Of a stretch of DNA of 64,000 nucleotides, positions 21,525-31,396 are shown in pieces. The notes under the pieces were generated by a model. That model saw only the letters and a program-made list of their open reading frames with translations, made no database searches and was not told the origin of the DNA. The stretch is from positions 62,001-126,000 of the forward strand of contig JAIQFY010000003.1 in the NCBI GenBank assembly GCA_020072965.1, read 5' to 3'. The DNA is from Terriglobia bacterium (GTDB taxonomy: Bacteria > Acidobacteriota > Terriglobia > JAIQFV01). The translations under genes and the position numbers were made by a program. Position 1 is the stretch's first letter. Each line of letters opens with the position of its first letter.

Positions 21525-23465
21525 CTAGAAAGTGGTCATGACAGAAAGCTGTTCCCGGCGGTCATGCCAGACATGAGCAGGGAGACCTCTGAAAATGGGA
21601 AGAGCTCCCACGTCGTTAGCCGAACGCGTGCGGTAATACGATTCTTCAAAAGCGAAAGTCAAATACTTGTTGAACTTGTAGTTGAGGTTGGAAAGATACA
21701 AGTCACCGATGGCGCGATTGGCTGGAGCCACATGCCGCACGTCCCGCGGGAATGCTTCGTCAAACCCGTAATGAAACGTCATCGACCAACCCGCGCCCCG
21801 TCCTGCAGGATCCGCTCCCGCGAGACGGGATAACGGCAAGCCGAGCTCAATGAATCCCCCTTTGGCCCTGACAGGACGTTGCGGGGCGACGGTTGGGACT
21901 CCATTTTGGAGGCCAAAAATAACGGTCGAAGCTCCGTCAATGGATAGGGCCGACGTTTGTCCGGTCAATCCAGCGGGATCGTTGAATTCGGAGAAGATCT
22001 GGCCTTCAAAGTAGAACCGCAGATCCTCACCGTTATAGGCCTTCATGAGCAGTGTGAACCAACGGGTGGGAAGTTGCGCCTCCAGGGTTCCGCCATAGCG
22101 GGAGCTATCCACTTGGGCACCGGTTGGAAACGCCGCTTTAAACGCTGCCGGCACGCCCGCGGCTGTAATGACCGCGGCCCGCTGGCCGTACATCCAGCTC
22201 GCAATCAGTTGCGCGGGCGCTACACCCGGCGACTTGTCCAACTGGAACTGGGTCACAAACCGCCCTTGAAGCTCGGGCATACTGGAGTCGGCGCCCTGTC
22301 GCTCGCCGAAGCCGAGTTGGTTCGCAACACCCAGGGCGTTTAATCCCAGATCGGTAGGCAGGTTTCCATAAGCCGGAAGGACCAGGGCAAACTCGGGCTC
22401 GAATTTTAGATTTCGAGAGCCTCCATGAGTGAAAGCAACGCCAAAGCGGAACTGAGGCGCGCGTTCGTATAGTGAACCAAACCCGATTCCCAAACCCGTC
22501 GTCTCAACGAAATAGGGCAAGGTTGAAGAGGCGAAAGGGGTCCAGTCCTGACCAAAGAGGGCAAAGGCACTCGTCTTGTCAGAAAACTTCTTGTCAATCC
22601 GTAACCACCCCAGACGTATCTGGAGCGCATTGGAACGGATCGTAGAAATGTTTCGATTATTCGCGCGGGAGAAGTTTCCTTCAAAATCCGTCTCGATCTT
22701 TCCCGTGATGGTGATGGTCTTGGAAGGGTCCAGCCATTCGAAGTCAGCCCCAACTCGGAGCGCACGGGCATTCAGGTGAAATTCCGGTGAGCCGAATGGA
22801 CCCGTGTCCCCGAGAGCAAACCCCGGGAGAGGAAAGTCGTTGCCCTGGGGGGACGACGTGTCATGGATGAGACTAAATTTAAACAAGCCATAGGGCTTTA
22901 TCTTGATATCGTTTCCAATCTTTATTACCGGCAGCAGACCATCCCGTTTGTAGGCGGCGTCGCCCGCCAGACCCAACGCGCGAATGGGGGCTACCGCGGG
23001 AATCACCGGTGGGGGAGCTGTCTCCGGTGGAGAGGGGGGGGCGCTCGCTTCCGCGCTGGACCAGGGGTCGGCAGGAGCGGTATTTCGCGCGGACATCATC
23101 CCGGGATCAAAACTGCTCCCTGCATCTCTCGGGACTGCAACCCCGGCATAATTTCGGGAGGCCACCATCGTGCGGGGTGCGGTGGCAGCGGCAAGAGCGA
23201 AGGAGGCCGCCATCTCATCATATTCCTTCTGACTGATGAGCCCTTTCGACAACAGAAGCTTTGCCAACTGCATCTGGCTATCGACGGACGACGCGGTCTG
23301 ATTCAGCGAAGTCGCCTCCTCCGGGGTAATAATGCCCTTCGACTGGAGCAAGCGGACCAGAGGATTGGGGGCCGGGGGAGAGCCGTCCTTCGGCTGTGCC
23401 ATGCCCAGACTTGCCATGACGAATAACACGAGCACTAAGAGAATCAATTGCGATGACTTTTTCAT
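21525..23465 (-). CDS. Outer-membrane porin-like protein with N-terminal repeated helical motif
   Basis: A 646-residue exported protein. It begins with a signal peptide (MKKSSQLILLVLVLFVMASLGMAQ). Two copies of a short helical motif follow (LVRLLQSKGIITPEEATSL, then LAKLLLSKGLISQKEYDEMA), then a Pro/Ala-rich linker, then a long region with alternating aromatic/polar strands ending in Phe (SVMTTF), typical of a beta-barrel. It resembles phosphate-selective porin O/P-like proteins of Acidobacteriota. The frame extends 35 codons upstream, but GGAGGAG seven bases before the ATG at 23465 fits best. It lies between the OFA carrier and fdhE and may let small anions into the periplasm. Solute specificity unknown. 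Confidence 0.72.
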   Translation of the reverse strand: MKKSSQLILLVLVLFVMASLGMAQPKDGSPPAPNPLVRLLQSKGIITPEEATSLNQTASSVDSQMQLAKLLLSKGLISQKEYDEMAASFALAAATAPRTMVASRNYAGVAVPRDAGSSFDPGMMSARNTAPADPWSSAEASAPPSPPETAPPPVIPAVAPIRALGLAGDAAYKRDGLLPVIKIGNDIKIKPYGLFKFSLIHDTSSPQGNDFPLPGFALGDTGPFGSPEFHLNARALRVGADFEWLDPSKTITITGKIETDFEGNFSRANNRNISTIRSNALQIRLGWLRIDKKFSDKTSAFALFGQDWTPFASSTLPYFVETTGLGIGFGSLYERAPQFRFGVAFTHGGSRNLKFEPEFALVLPAYGNLPTDLGLNALGVANQLGFGERQGADSSMPELQGRFVTQFQLDKSPGVAPAQLIASWMYGQRAAVITAAGVPAAFKAAFPTGAQVDSSRYGGTLEAQLPTRWFTLLMKAYNGEDLRFYFEGQIFSEFNDPAGLTGQTSALSIDGASTVIFGLQNGVPTVAPQRPVRAKGGFIELGLPLSRLAGADPAGRGAGWSMTFHYGFDEAFPRDVRHVAPANRAIGDLYLSNLNYKFNKYLTFAFEESYYRTRSANDVGALPIFRGLPAHVWHDRREQLSVMTTF

Positions 23466-24181
23466 CTGCATACTCCTCCTCGATTGGTTGTCGTGACGGG
23501 ACTGCGCGGATCGGTTGGACAGGTTGATTTTGATGCGATGTCTCATTAATTCGAAAAAGGTGCATGCCACACTCGCGAAGAACGGTCCGCGCTGATGGTG
23601 TGGTTTGTTGCCTCTGGAAAACCTTTTACGAAATCAATTTCGAGTATGGCAGCGGGCGTGAAATCCTGAGATAGATCAGGTCAACTGAAATTTATGCCAA
23701 AGAGAAATGGCTTGCTCAAGATTTGATTCTGGTTTGCCGGGGGCAACGCAGCTCACCCCGCAGCAACGACTCCCGGTGAAAATGTGCCATTTCTGAGGAT
23801 GAGACCGGTATGAGATGGGATGGGGAATGGAAAACGTGATGAGAAGGAGTTGAAAGAATCAGACGGGTCGGGCCAGTGAGGCTTGGATTGAATACTCTCG
23901 TTAAATTGGATATGAAATAGGAATGAATTGAATTCCGGCTGGGTCAGCCGAAAGGTCGTAGAAAGGATAATATGCCAGGACGACAATTGAGGCTGGGAAT
24001 GGCCGGGAGAGGCCTGTACGCTCTTTCGCGGCGGATCACCAGCAAAAGACGACGCTATCTCCATCGGGCCAGACCCTTTCGCAGGAAAAAAGTCCCGCTC
24101 CCCAAACAAGATTCGATGACTCTACTTAGAGACTCTTACCCTGTCAAGTGAAATCATTGGCGCAAAACTCAAATCTCCAAC
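23466..24181. other. Intergenic region of about 715 bases
   Basis: Lies between the fdhE stop and the porin start, both on the minus strand. Short frames have no recognisable product. It should hold the porin promoter. I found no clear terminator or repeat. Confidence 0.45.
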
Positions 24182-25854: not shown

Positions 25855-26757
25855 TTAGACCTCCTCTCGGTCAACTTTGCGCATGCCCGGCGCCTCATTG
25901 CGCCCATACCGGACGTAGTGAATGATCGTCCCCAGCAAAGCTCCGATCATCAACAAGGAGCCGATCGGTTTGAGGGCATGCTTCCACACGGAGACGGTCC
26001 AAGGGACGTGTGGGTCATTTGGCAGTCCATACAGCTCGGGTTGATCGCCGAGACCCAGCACATAAATGACCCCGGTTCCTCCCACCCCTGGAGGGTCGTA
26101 GATGGCAGCCTTTTCGTAACCGTTGTGCTTCAACTGCTCCACGCGGGCATTGGCGATCTGGACCAGGTGCTCCTTCGTCCCAAACTGCAGGCATCCGGTG
26201 GGACAAGCCTTGATGCAGGCGGGTTCCAAACCGTAGGCCAGGCGGTCAGTACACAGCGTGCACTTATACACCTTCTTGGTCTTCTTGCTGAGACGCGGGA
26301 TGTCGAACGGACAGCCCGTCACGCAGTATTCGCAGCCGATGCAATGTTCCTGCTGGAAGTCCACGACCCCGTTGGTGTACTGGACGATCGCTCCCGGGGC
26401 GGGACACGCCTTCAGGCAGCCGGGGTCTTCGCAATGCATGCACTGGTCTTTCGCCATCAACCAGTGGAATTTCTCCGACCCATCCGGCCTTTTTTCGACA
26501 TGCTCGTTGAACCGGATCAGGTTCCAGAAATTGGCGGTCAGATCGGGCATCGTCTGGTAAGAGCCGAACTCGGAGGGCGCCTCCAGCGCTATGTCCGCGT
26601 TAAACAGATCGTTCCACTCCTGGCACGCCACCTCGCAGGCCTTGCAGCCGATACAGGTCGTCGTATCGATCATCTTGGCGACCGTGGGTGCGGTGCGCAC
26701 GCCCGTGGCGGGGGAAGGAGTTGCCGAGATTCTTCTAAGTTCCATGTTGCTGGGCAT
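25855..26757 (-). CDS. fdoH: Formate dehydrogenase iron-sulfur (beta) subunit
   Basis: A 300-residue four-cluster ferredoxin subunit. Cysteine clusters are visible at about residues 35-46 (CIGCKACEVACQEW), 98-110 (CMHCEDPGCLKACP), 131-142 (CIGCEYCVTGCPF) and 158-175 (CTLC...ACIKACPTGC). A single C-terminal transmembrane helix (IGSLLMIGALLGTIIHYVRYG) anchors it in the membrane, as in FdnH/FdoH. It links the molybdenum or tungsten centre of the alpha subunit to cytochrome b. AAGGAGG lies about nine bases before the ATG. It sits between fdoG and fdoI. Confidence 0.92.
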   Translation of the reverse strand: MPSNMELRRISATPSPATGVRTAPTVAKMIDTTTCIGCKACEVACQEWNDLFNADIALEAPSEFGSYQTMPDLTANFWNLIRFNEHVEKRPDGSEKFHWLMAKDQCMHCEDPGCLKACPAPGAIVQYTNGVVDFQQEHCIGCEYCVTGCPFDIPRLSKKTKKVYKCTLCTDRLAYGLEPACIKACPTGCLQFGTKEHLVQIANARVEQLKHNGYEKAAIYDPPGVGGTGVIYVLGLGDQPELYGLPNDPHVPWTVSVWKHALKPIGSLLMIGALLGTIIHYVRYGRNEAPGMRKVDREEV

Positions 26758-26775: not shown

Positions 26776-29700
26776 CTAAGCCTTGTCCAGAGATACGAGG
26801 AAAGCCTTGTACTCTGGAGTTGAAGAGTTTGGATCGAGCGCTGTCGGGGTAAGCGTATTTGCCAAAGGACCGACCGATTTGCCGGCGTATCCCCAGTGTA
26901 TCGGGAAGCCGATCTGCCACACGGTCTGTCCGGCGACCTTGAGCGGACGAATTCGCTTCGTCACCATCGCTTTGCCTTCCACCGATCCGCGGGCCGAAGA
27001 GACCTTCACGCGATCGCCGTGTTTAATCCCTTTTTCCTTGGCCAGCTCCTCGGGAATCTCCACGAAGAATTCCTGTTGCAGCTGGTTGAGGATGGCTTCG
27101 TGTTTGGTCCAGTAATGGAAGTGTTCGGTCAGGCGAAAGGTGGTGCACACGATCGGGAACTTATCCCGCGTGCCATAGACATCCATCTTGGTCTTGAACA
27201 GTTTCGTGACGGGATTGGAACTGACCTTCGGGTGCAATGGATTATCGACGGGCGTCTCGTAGGGCTCATAATGCTCCGGGAATGGGCCTTCATTCATCTC
27301 GACGGCGTAGAGTTTTCCCACGCCTTCGGGATTCATGATGAAGGGCCCGATCATTTCCTCGGGCTTATAATCCGGCTTGTAATCGGGGACGTCGCCGACC
27401 CACTTTTCGCCATTCCACCAGATGCCGGGGCGCTTCGGGTCCCAGGGCTTTCCGTTCAGGTCCGCCGACGCCCGGTTGTACATGATGCGGCGGTTGGCAG
27501 GCCAGTTAAACGCCCAGTTGTGGTATGCGCCGAGTCCGCCGGAATCATCGACCGGATTGCGCCGCATGGCCAGATTGCCCGCCTCCGTGTAATAGCCCGA
27601 GTGCAGCCAGTTTCCACTGAGCGTTTTCCCATCGGCCCGCAGCACGGCGTAACCGGGCACCTGTTGACCTTTCTTGTAATCCACCTTTGTTTTCTCGTCA
27701 GTGAAATCCTCAAGGACTTTCCCGTTGACCTCCTTGGCCACTTCCTCCAAGTTCGGGCTGACAGGATTTGAATAGTTCCACGCCATTTTGACCACCGGGT
27801 CGGGAAGCTTGCCGCCTTCCTTGTTGTAAAGCTCCCTCAGCTTCAAAACCAGGCGACCGATGATCTCCTGATCGGCCTTCGCGTCACCCGGGGGGTCGAC
27901 AACCTTCCACTTCCACTGAAGCCAACGTGAAGAATTAGTGAACACACCGTCCTTTTCCGCAAAATTGGCCGCGGGGAGCATGAACACCTCGGTTTTGATC
28001 TGCGCGGCGGCCGGAGGATCGTATTCCTTGGGCGCCTTCCAGAACGAGGCGGTCTCGGTTTCAAAGTTCTCCGCGACCACAAGCCAGTCAAGCCGGGAGA
28101 GGGCCTGCACCATCTTCTTGGAGTGCGGGCCATTGCCGACTGGGTTCATCCCAAACGAAAAGACGCCCTTGACAATTCCGTTGTACGCGCCGTCGTAGAT
28201 ATAAACCCACGAATAATCGCGGTCCATCTTCGGCAGCCAGGAGTAGGCAAAGTCATTTTCCGTGGTTGCGGCACTGCCCCAGAAGGCCTTCAGCATCGAT
28301 ACCATGAACTTGTCGGTGTTTTCCCAGTAGTTCATGGAGTTCGGACGGAGTTTTTTTGGCGTAGTGGCGTCAATGAATTCCTTGAGCGACTGCCATTCCG
28401 GCTTTGGCATCTTCAAATAGCCGGGCAGCGTGTGGGTCTGATTCATATCCGTCGCGCCCTGGATGTTGGAATGCCCGCGCAGCGCGTTCACTCCGCCTCC
28501 CGGTCGGCCGACGTTGCCCAGCAGCAATTGCATGGACGCCGCGGCGCGAATGTTCTGGACCGCCGAAGAATGGTGCGTCCATCCGAGGGCATACATGATG
28601 GTTCCCGCTTTTTCAGGAGCATATGTGGAACTGATCATTTCCGCAGCCTTCAAGAAATCTTCCTTGGAGCAGCCGCAGATGCTTGCAACCATTTCAGCCG
28701 TGTACCGGGAGTAATGTTTCTTCATCAGTTGAAACACGCATCGCGGGTCCTCCAGCGTCATGTCGACCTTGACGAAATTGTCCGTCCCCATTTCGTAGGC
28801 CCACGTGGACTTGTCGTAGGCCCGTTTTTGCGGATCAAAGCCGGAGAACAGGCCGTCGTTGTCACCCGGAAGCAGGAGACCTTCCTTGATCAGGAAAGGA
28901 GCATTGGTGTAATTGGCAACATACTCTTTGTGGATGCGGTTGTTGGTGAGCATGTAGTTCATCACGCCCGCCAGGAAAGCGATGTCAGTGCCCGATCGGA
29001 TCTGGACAAATTGATCGCTCACCGCCGCGGTGCGATTGAAGCGCGGATCCACACAAATCAGCTTGGCGTTCCGAGTCTTTTTCGCTTCAATGGCCCACTT
29101 GAAGCCGCACGGATGGTTTTCTGCCGGGTTCCCGCCCATCACCAGGATGACGTCGGCATTCTTGATATCGACCCAATTGTTGGTCATGGCCCCGCGACCG
29201 AAGGTGGCGCCCAAACTGGACACCGTGGGGCCGTGTCAAAGTCGTGCCTGATTGTCGGTGTACAAGACGCCGAGGGAACGCAGCCACTTCACCAACAAAT
29301 AATTGACTTCATTGTTGTCGGTGCAGCCGCCGACGATCGCCATGCCGGGACATTGATTCACGGTCTGTCCGGCGGCGTTCTTTTCGATGAAGGTGTCATC
29401 CCTCGTCTTCTTCATGCGCTGCGCGATGGTGTCAATCATCCAGTCCCAACTCTTTTCCTCCCAGTGGTCGGAACCGGAAGCCCGGTACATGGGCTTCGTC
29501 AGGCGCGTGTTGTTGACGATGTCGTGCTTGAGGGTGATTCCCTTGGGACAAAGCGTGCCGCGGTTGACGGGATGGTCCGGGTCGCCTTCGACGTGAACGA
29601 CGGTCGTGCCGGTCACGTTCTTGGATTTGTCGCCCAGGGTGTGAATGATCACGCCACAACTCACCGCGCAGTACGGACATATCGAGCGGGTTTCAGTGGT

Positions 29701-29820
29701 GCGCTCGATCTTTAGTTCGCGTACGACGGCATAAGCGGGCGCGAGATCGAAGCCGAAGGCAACAATTCCAACGCCGCCGGCCGTTGAGATCTTTAAAAAT
29801 TCCCTCCGCGAGACAGCCAT
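26776..29820 (-). CDS. fdoG: Formate dehydrogenase major (alpha) subunit, selenocysteine-containing; in-frame UGA at residue 195
   Basis: A 1014-residue periplasm-facing Mo/W-bis-MGD formate dehydrogenase. The first part (29820-29236) starts with a Tat signal (VSRREFLKISTAGGVGIVAF), then a 4Fe-4S motif CPYCAVSCGVIIH, and stops at a TGA directly after YTDNQARL. The second part continues in the same frame with HGPTVSSLGATFGRGAMTNN, so the full site is NQARL-U-HGPTV, as in E. coli FdoG. The TGA is therefore selenocysteine, not a stop. A SECIS-like hairpin lies just downstream. The rest holds molybdopterin-binding and oxidoreductase domains, ending in the C-terminal dinucleotide-binding domain (FPIVCTTFRLTEHFHYWTKH). 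AAGGAGG before the ATG at 29820 confirms the start. Automatic callers would split it into two genes. It implies that selABCD genes exist elsewhere in the genome. Confidence 0.93.
29188..29235 (-). promoter_or_regulatory. Bacterial SECIS-like hairpin downstream of the fdoG UGA codon
   Basis: The message after UGA (29238-29236) can fold. GGCCCC (29232-29227) pairs with GGGGCC (29193-29188). Inside it, GGUG pairs with CACC and a short CC/GG stem closes an AGUUU loop, about 18 bases after UGA with a G among the first loop bases. These are normal features of a bacterial SECIS bound by SelB. The structure is drawn by eye. Confidence 0.65.
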
Positions 29821-30323
29821 AAGCTCTCTCCTCCTTGAAGAGCCAAAAGCAGGTTGATGGGGTGAACAACTCGGGAACAGGAAAGGCGGCTCTTGAGCCA
29901 CACCAGATTGCCAGAAGAGGGACACAACTCCCTCACTAGATCGTGGCCTGACCATTCCTCGAGTTGTTTGTGCAGCGAGGCCTTCATAGAAAAACCTGGC
30001 AAAGCACGTTCAATCTAAGGATGCAAACTTGCAGGATCAAGGACGAACTTGGAAGCTATGTCGAGTCTGAAGCTCTTGACAACAGAGATTTAGATGAACT
30101 GAGTGTTTGGTTTTGAAACACCCCATCATCTGACCATCCGCCTTCGCCTGTCAATGGAAAAAATTTGCCCGGTGGAATAGTTCCTTTCGTCACAATTGAC
30201 TTGTACCTGGTTTCACAATCACCCCTGCTTTCTTGCCGACGGGGGGTGTTTTCTGTTGACAGAGGGGGGAATCCAGTTCAGATTTTGATGGGAGCGAAGA
30301 CCAAACGACAAGGGAGTTGCCGC
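29821..30323. promoter_or_regulatory. Divergent intergenic region between fdoG and the small protein
   Basis: About 500 bases containing the promoters for the fdoGHI operon (minus) and for the small protein at 30324 (plus). No clear consensus -35/-10 pair or regulator site was recognised. The minus strand AAGGAGG of fdoG is at its left end. Confidence 0.5.
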
Positions 30324-30623
30324 ATGAGAGTCTCTTTGGAAACTGACCGCGGGCAAATCAAGCTGAATCCTTTTGTGGAACGATTGACCGGCAACCTGTT
30401 GAGCGGAGTCCTGGAATCGCTCCACGTTCCTGAAGAGGCCCCGGTGGCCGAATTTGTGGTGAACGGCGGCGGCGCCCGGATCGTGGTGTCACAAAAAGAG
30501 ATCCCCCTGATAAATGCCTTCGTCAAGAATGTGCTGGCGGACATCCTGCATGTCGTGATGAAGAATTTGAAGGGCACAGACGGGGTGACCCAGGCCACCT
30601 TCAGGCTGGACCGCGGCGTTTAA
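30324..30623 (+). CDS. Small conserved-looking protein of unknown function
   Basis: A 99-residue acidic/mixed soluble protein beginning MRVSLETDRGQIKLNPFVER. It has an alpha-beta pattern: strand, helix (LTGNLLSGVLESL), strands (VAEFVVNGGGARIVVSQ) and a helix (INAFVKNVLADILHVVMKNL). I do not recognise a family. The frame opens earlier (30165) but AGGGAG eight bases before the ATG at 30324 sets the start. It is divergent from fdoG and precedes the MobB-like gene by about 110 bases, so a role in formate dehydrogenase cofactor supply is possible but unproven. Confidence 0.62.
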   Translation: MRVSLETDRGQIKLNPFVERLTGNLLSGVLESLHVPEEAPVAEFVVNGGGARIVVSQKEIPLINAFVKNVLADILHVVMKNLKGTDGVTQATFRLDRGV

Positions 30624-30736: not shown

Positions 30737-31396
30737 ATGAAACTCGTACTCGTCGGGGGGCACTCTAGAAACATTGGAAAGACCTCGGTCGTCGAAGGGC
30801 TGATTCGGTCACTTCGAGAATTCCCCTGGACCGCAGTCAAGATTACGCAGTACGGGCACGGGGTCTGCGCCGTCAACGGCGAATCCTGCGGATGTGCGGT
30901 CAGTGAACATCAGTTTGCCATCGTGGAAGAGAAGGAAGTAAGCACGGGCACCGACACCTCGCGATTTCTCGCCGCCGGGGCGCGGCGCTCGCTCTGGGTG
31001 CGCACCAAACAGGGTGAATTGTTTACGGCAATCCCCGCGTTCCAGAAGGAGATCGAGACCGAGCAGTTTGTGATTGTCGAAAGCAACAGCCTGCGTCGAT
31101 TCCTGAAACCGGATATTTACCTGCAGGTCCTCGATCCCCGGCAAGAGGACTTCAAACTTTCGGCACAACAGTACTTTGATCTCGCGGATGCCTATCTCCT
31201 CGTCTCTGGCCCTTCTCACCCCGGGGCGCTCGAGGCGGAGCGCTCGCCCTGGCAGAATGTATCGCTGGCCCGGCAGCTTCGAAAACACACTCCCTGTTTT
31301 GCCGTGAATTCCGAGGAGAGGTTCTTGAATGCACCCGTTGTGGATTTCGTAAGAGCGAAGCTTGAAAGCGCCATTTCGAGCTCAGAGCGGTCGTAG
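30737..31396 (+). CDS. P-loop NTPase, MobB-like (possible molybdopterin-guanine dinucleotide synthesis adaptor)
   Basis: A 219-residue cytosolic protein. The N-terminus has a Walker A motif (GGHSRNIGKTSVVEGLI) on a Rossmann-like strand, and later segments (FVIVESNSLRRFLKPDIYLQV) match the pattern of MobB and related small GTPases. MobB helps the MobA guanylyltransferase load the molybdenum cofactor used by formate dehydrogenase. A Cys-rich stretch (NGESCGCAVSE) is unusual for MobB and could bind metal. The gene lies next to the formate dehydrogenase operon, which fits. The exact role is inferred; it could be an unrelated P-loop protein. Confidence 0.6.
   Translation: MKLVLVGGHSRNIGKTSVVEGLIRSLREFPWTAVKITQYGHGVCAVNGESCGCAVSEHQFAIVEEKEVSTGTDTSRFLAAGARRSLWVRTKQGELFTAIPAFQKEIETEQFVIVESNSLRRFLKPDIYLQVLDPRQEDFKLSAQQYFDLADAYLLVSGPSHPGALEAERSPWQNVSLARQLRKHTPCFAVNSEERFLNAPVVDFVRAKLESAISSSERS

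Follow-up and report, generated by a model that had tools for sequence, protein, structure and literature searches.

The in-frame UGA at positions 29236-29238 of the window (the whole stretch of 64,000 nucleotides of DNA analysed here) is almost certainly recoded as selenocysteine (Sec), judging from sequence, in the alpha subunit of an FDH-N/FDH-O-type respiratory formate dehydrogenase. This reading was advanced in a preliminary description of the locus and is now supported by a full set of sel genes, a SECIS element scoring above its gathering threshold, the alignment of the UGA with the Sec residue of FdnG and the conservation of the codon. The gene, the hairpin, the insertion machinery and the conservation were all computed directly, and incorporation of Sec through an internal UGA in formate dehydrogenase is known from E. 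coli and from numerous further bacteria. The locus comprises the following features:

29236..29238, minus strand: in-frame UGA, predicted to be read as selenocysteine, aligned to the Sec of FdnG in 1KQF
26776..29820, minus strand: fdnG/fdoG-type formate dehydrogenase alpha subunit, 1014 aa, predicted Sec at residue 195
29183..29241, minus strand: bacterial SECIS element, Rfam RF01989 SECIS_3, 64.1 bits, E 1.2e-12
25855..26757, minus strand: formate dehydrogenase beta subunit (4Fe-4S, FDH-N transmembrane segment), TIGR01582 and PF09163
25172..25852, minus strand: formate dehydrogenase gamma subunit (cytochrome b), TIGR01583 and PF01292
24182..25120, minus strand: FdhE-like accessory protein, PF24860 over the cut-off

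The plus strand reads TCA at 29236-29238, hence TGA on the minus strand, where the frame runs as ...YTDNQARL-UGA-HGPTVSSLGATF... (UGA at 29238-29236), with GTCTTGTACACCGACAATCAGGCACGACTT directly preceding the TGA and CACGGCCCCACGGTG coming after it. The frame had been described as stopping right after YTDNQARL and resuming in the same register, and this is indeed its only interruption: beginning with the ATG at 29820 and ending at 26779, the alpha gene counts 1014 codons with one TGA at codon 195, and a scan of all of them revealed neither TAA nor TAG. The two partial genes anticipated from an automatic annotation also appeared, as the mechanical list of open reading frames splits the alpha gene into 29236-29955 and 26776-29223. 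An AGGAGG motif sits just 5' of the ATG at 29820, a better start than the one at 29955, and the N-terminus of the subunit carries a twin-arginine-like SRREFLKIS sequence.

The identity of the read-through protein was established through searches in which the TGA was entered as Cys. A match with NCBIfam TIGR01553 (formate dehydrogenase-N subunit alpha) covered residues 3-1013 with 1447 bits, over a cut-off of 814 bits, and the Fe4S4, molybdopterin and dinucleotide-binding domains of the alpha subunit were all present (PF04879, PF00384 and PF01568). Moreover, E. coli FdnG (1KQF chain A) aligned end to end with the protein (1157 bits), and the UGA, which corresponds to residue 195 here and to 196 in FdnG, fell on the modified residue X (Sec) of the NQARV-X-HGPTV stretch in 1KQF, in keeping with the earlier proposal of an NQAR(V/L)-U-HGPTV site. 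The gene at 26776..29820 is the only full-length copy of the alpha subunit in the genome. Should the UGA terminate translation, or be subject to ordinary suppression (by Trp, for example), two polypeptides or a non-Sec residue would result, an outcome with which the two frames of the automatic list would agree. Such an outcome has, in our view, next to no probability: the position is that of the catalytic Sec/Cys of the family and not of a Trp, the downstream piece would be left without the Fe4S4 domain and the signal, and both a SECIS and a tRNA-Sec are found in the genome.

Regarding the signal that would direct selenocysteine to this codon, the SECIS-like hairpin claimed in the preliminary description was scored with the SECIS_3 model at 29241-29183, where its 64.1 bits are only just above the gathering score of 63. 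The match begins three bases ahead of the UGA and ends 53 bases past it, and is both the sole Rfam match in the window and the sole SECIS_3 match in the 5.9 Mb genome; the z-score of the hairpin fold is -2.1. The apical stem-loop is intact, and 3 of the 16 pairs of the model are non-standard (A-C and C-C in the outer stem, G-G in the inner stem). Compared with the Rfam family, the hairpin shares its position relative to the UGA as well as the apical stem and loop, and differs in those three pairs and in one apical pair, U-G here and usually G-C. It might thus be regarded as a somewhat divergent SECIS, perhaps reflecting a co-adapted SelB in this lineage, a suggestion in which we place very little confidence. 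Among 48 distinct UGA-containing sequences, pair 24/30 covaries from C-G to A-T, and pair 21/33 varies as G-C, A-T, G-T and C-G. Both bases of each of these pairs are third codon positions, and no broken pair occurs in the 48 sequences, although the covariation counts do not represent independent events because the sequences are related. Compensatory change is a feature of the apical pairs, the outer stem being weak in this respect, and a comparison of synonymous-site constraint between the whole hairpin and the rest of the gene, with 7 sites only, showed no significant difference (p = 0.11).

Selenocysteine insertion also demands attention to the remaining genes of the genome, whose completeness is listed as 100%. 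A search for selA, selB, selC and selD had been proposed, a missing selB or selC being regarded as evidence against the selenocysteine reading; such an absence was looked for and did not occur. The matches to selB (382 bits), selA (557 bits) and selD (377 bits) are each above the curated cut-off, and the tRNA-Sec encoded by selC scores 69.8 bits and carries a UCA anticodon. Those lower-scoring RF01852 matches that were inspected proved to be serine tRNAs. A reassignment of UGA throughout the genome would predict many genes with in-frame TGA codons, whereas selA, selB and the other matches inspected are devoid of internal stops, so that there is no sign of such a change and this explanation was rejected. 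An in-frame TGA does appear in selD, at the catalytic position within an AAG-U-AAKI motif (L018:1531-1533, G000 contig C68), and a strong hairpin, GGTCCAAAGGATTTGGACC, lies behind it. Because of these two elements selD itself is a probable selenoprotein, the second of this genome. SelD is a known selenoprotein family, described as the second most widely distributed in bacteria, after that of the formate dehydrogenase alpha subunit (FdhA) (PMC13188914).

The conservation of the codon was followed at several distances. In the one other genome of the same genus used for comparison, the alpha gene shows 96% protein and 91% DNA identity and keeps the TGA, with 63 of 63 nucleotides identical along the UGA-SECIS stretch; over the whole gene, 216 of the 1014 third codon positions (21%) have changed. 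Among 80 relatives, in which the site was counted with a strict regular expression, 79 carry a TGA and the remaining one a TGT (Cys) codon. At the level of the class, a strong match was obtained in 40 of the 121 genomes sampled, and the matches covering residue 195 show one TGA. A large number of the closest-matching relatives carry the label Acidobacteria, so that the DNA probably originates from within or close to this phylum, a group listed with selenoproteins as early as 2006 (PMC1794560). The lone relative with Cys is Telmatospirillum siberiense (L066:5586-5588), a distant one.

These data bear on the possibility that the UGA arose by nonsense mutation or through an error of sequencing, either in a pseudogene or in a formate dehydrogenase of the Cys type, for which the TGT codon of Telmatospirillum, one base away from TGA, could be invoked. 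That the congener and 79 of the 80 relatives share the TGA argues against a sequencing error and led to the rejection of both pseudogene and error, to which we would concede only a minute chance. The rest of the frame is moreover intact, the operon partners are present, the SECIS is correctly placed and the genome holds a complete Sec machinery.

The partners of the alpha subunit follow it in the order alpha, beta, gamma and FdhE-like, which is also the order in many relatives. The beta and gamma subunits score over their cut-offs with TIGR01582 (397 bits) and TIGR01583 (153 bits), respectively, and the FdhE-like protein reaches 65 bits with TIGR01562, under the 188-bit cut-off of this model. 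Two genes on the plus strand diverge from the operon: the first (window 30327-30620) encodes a protein of 98 aa with a weak resemblance to the C-terminal end of a MobB/FeS-domain protein, and the second (window 30737-31393) a P-loop-like protein of 219 aa whose only match, to MobB, stays below the threshold (E 0.04). Both are possibly related to the molybdenum cofactor, and neither was seen next to fdh in those related loci that were searched. Downstream of the operon, on the minus strand (window 21525-23570), lies a protein of 681 aa that probably bears a signal peptide and resembles a porin by eye, for which only a sub-threshold SHOCT match was obtained.

From what is known of the family we infer Sec insertion, metal coordination, export and localisation, and enzyme activity. 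SelB, together with Sec-tRNA(Sec) and GTP, would dock on the SECIS hairpin immediately downstream of the UGA, handing Sec to the ribosome at this codon, the residue then serving as the selenium ligand of the active-site Mo or W. Bearing a Tat-like signal, the alpha subunit would join the Fe-S beta subunit and the cytochrome b gamma subunit, in an assembly probably aided by the FdhE-like protein, and the resulting enzyme would oxidise formate and deliver the electrons to quinone. For annotation, the gene should be given as one selenoprotein of 1014 residues instead of two fragments, and the locus would document the use of selenium, and probably the respiratory oxidation of formate, in a lineage about which little is known.

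By its sequence, the locus is a standard FDH-N selenoprotein operon, a textbook bacterial Sec formate dehydrogenase of a kind already known. With E. coli FdnG/FdoG it shares the NQAR(V/L)-U-HGPTV site, the domain content, the beta and gamma partners and a SECIS after the UGA, and the lengths of the proteins are close (1014 aa here and 1015 aa in E. coli). On the other hand, the sequence is divergent, as are the gamma and FdhE-like proteins, and the FdhE-like gene lies directly behind gamma, unlike in E. coli. The fdhA loci of Acidobacteriota (such as L025, L027, L029, L032 and L036) share the UGA site, the hairpin and the alpha-beta-gamma order, often with an FdhE-like gene as well, and differ in that their proteins show about 58-63% identity to the one in the window.
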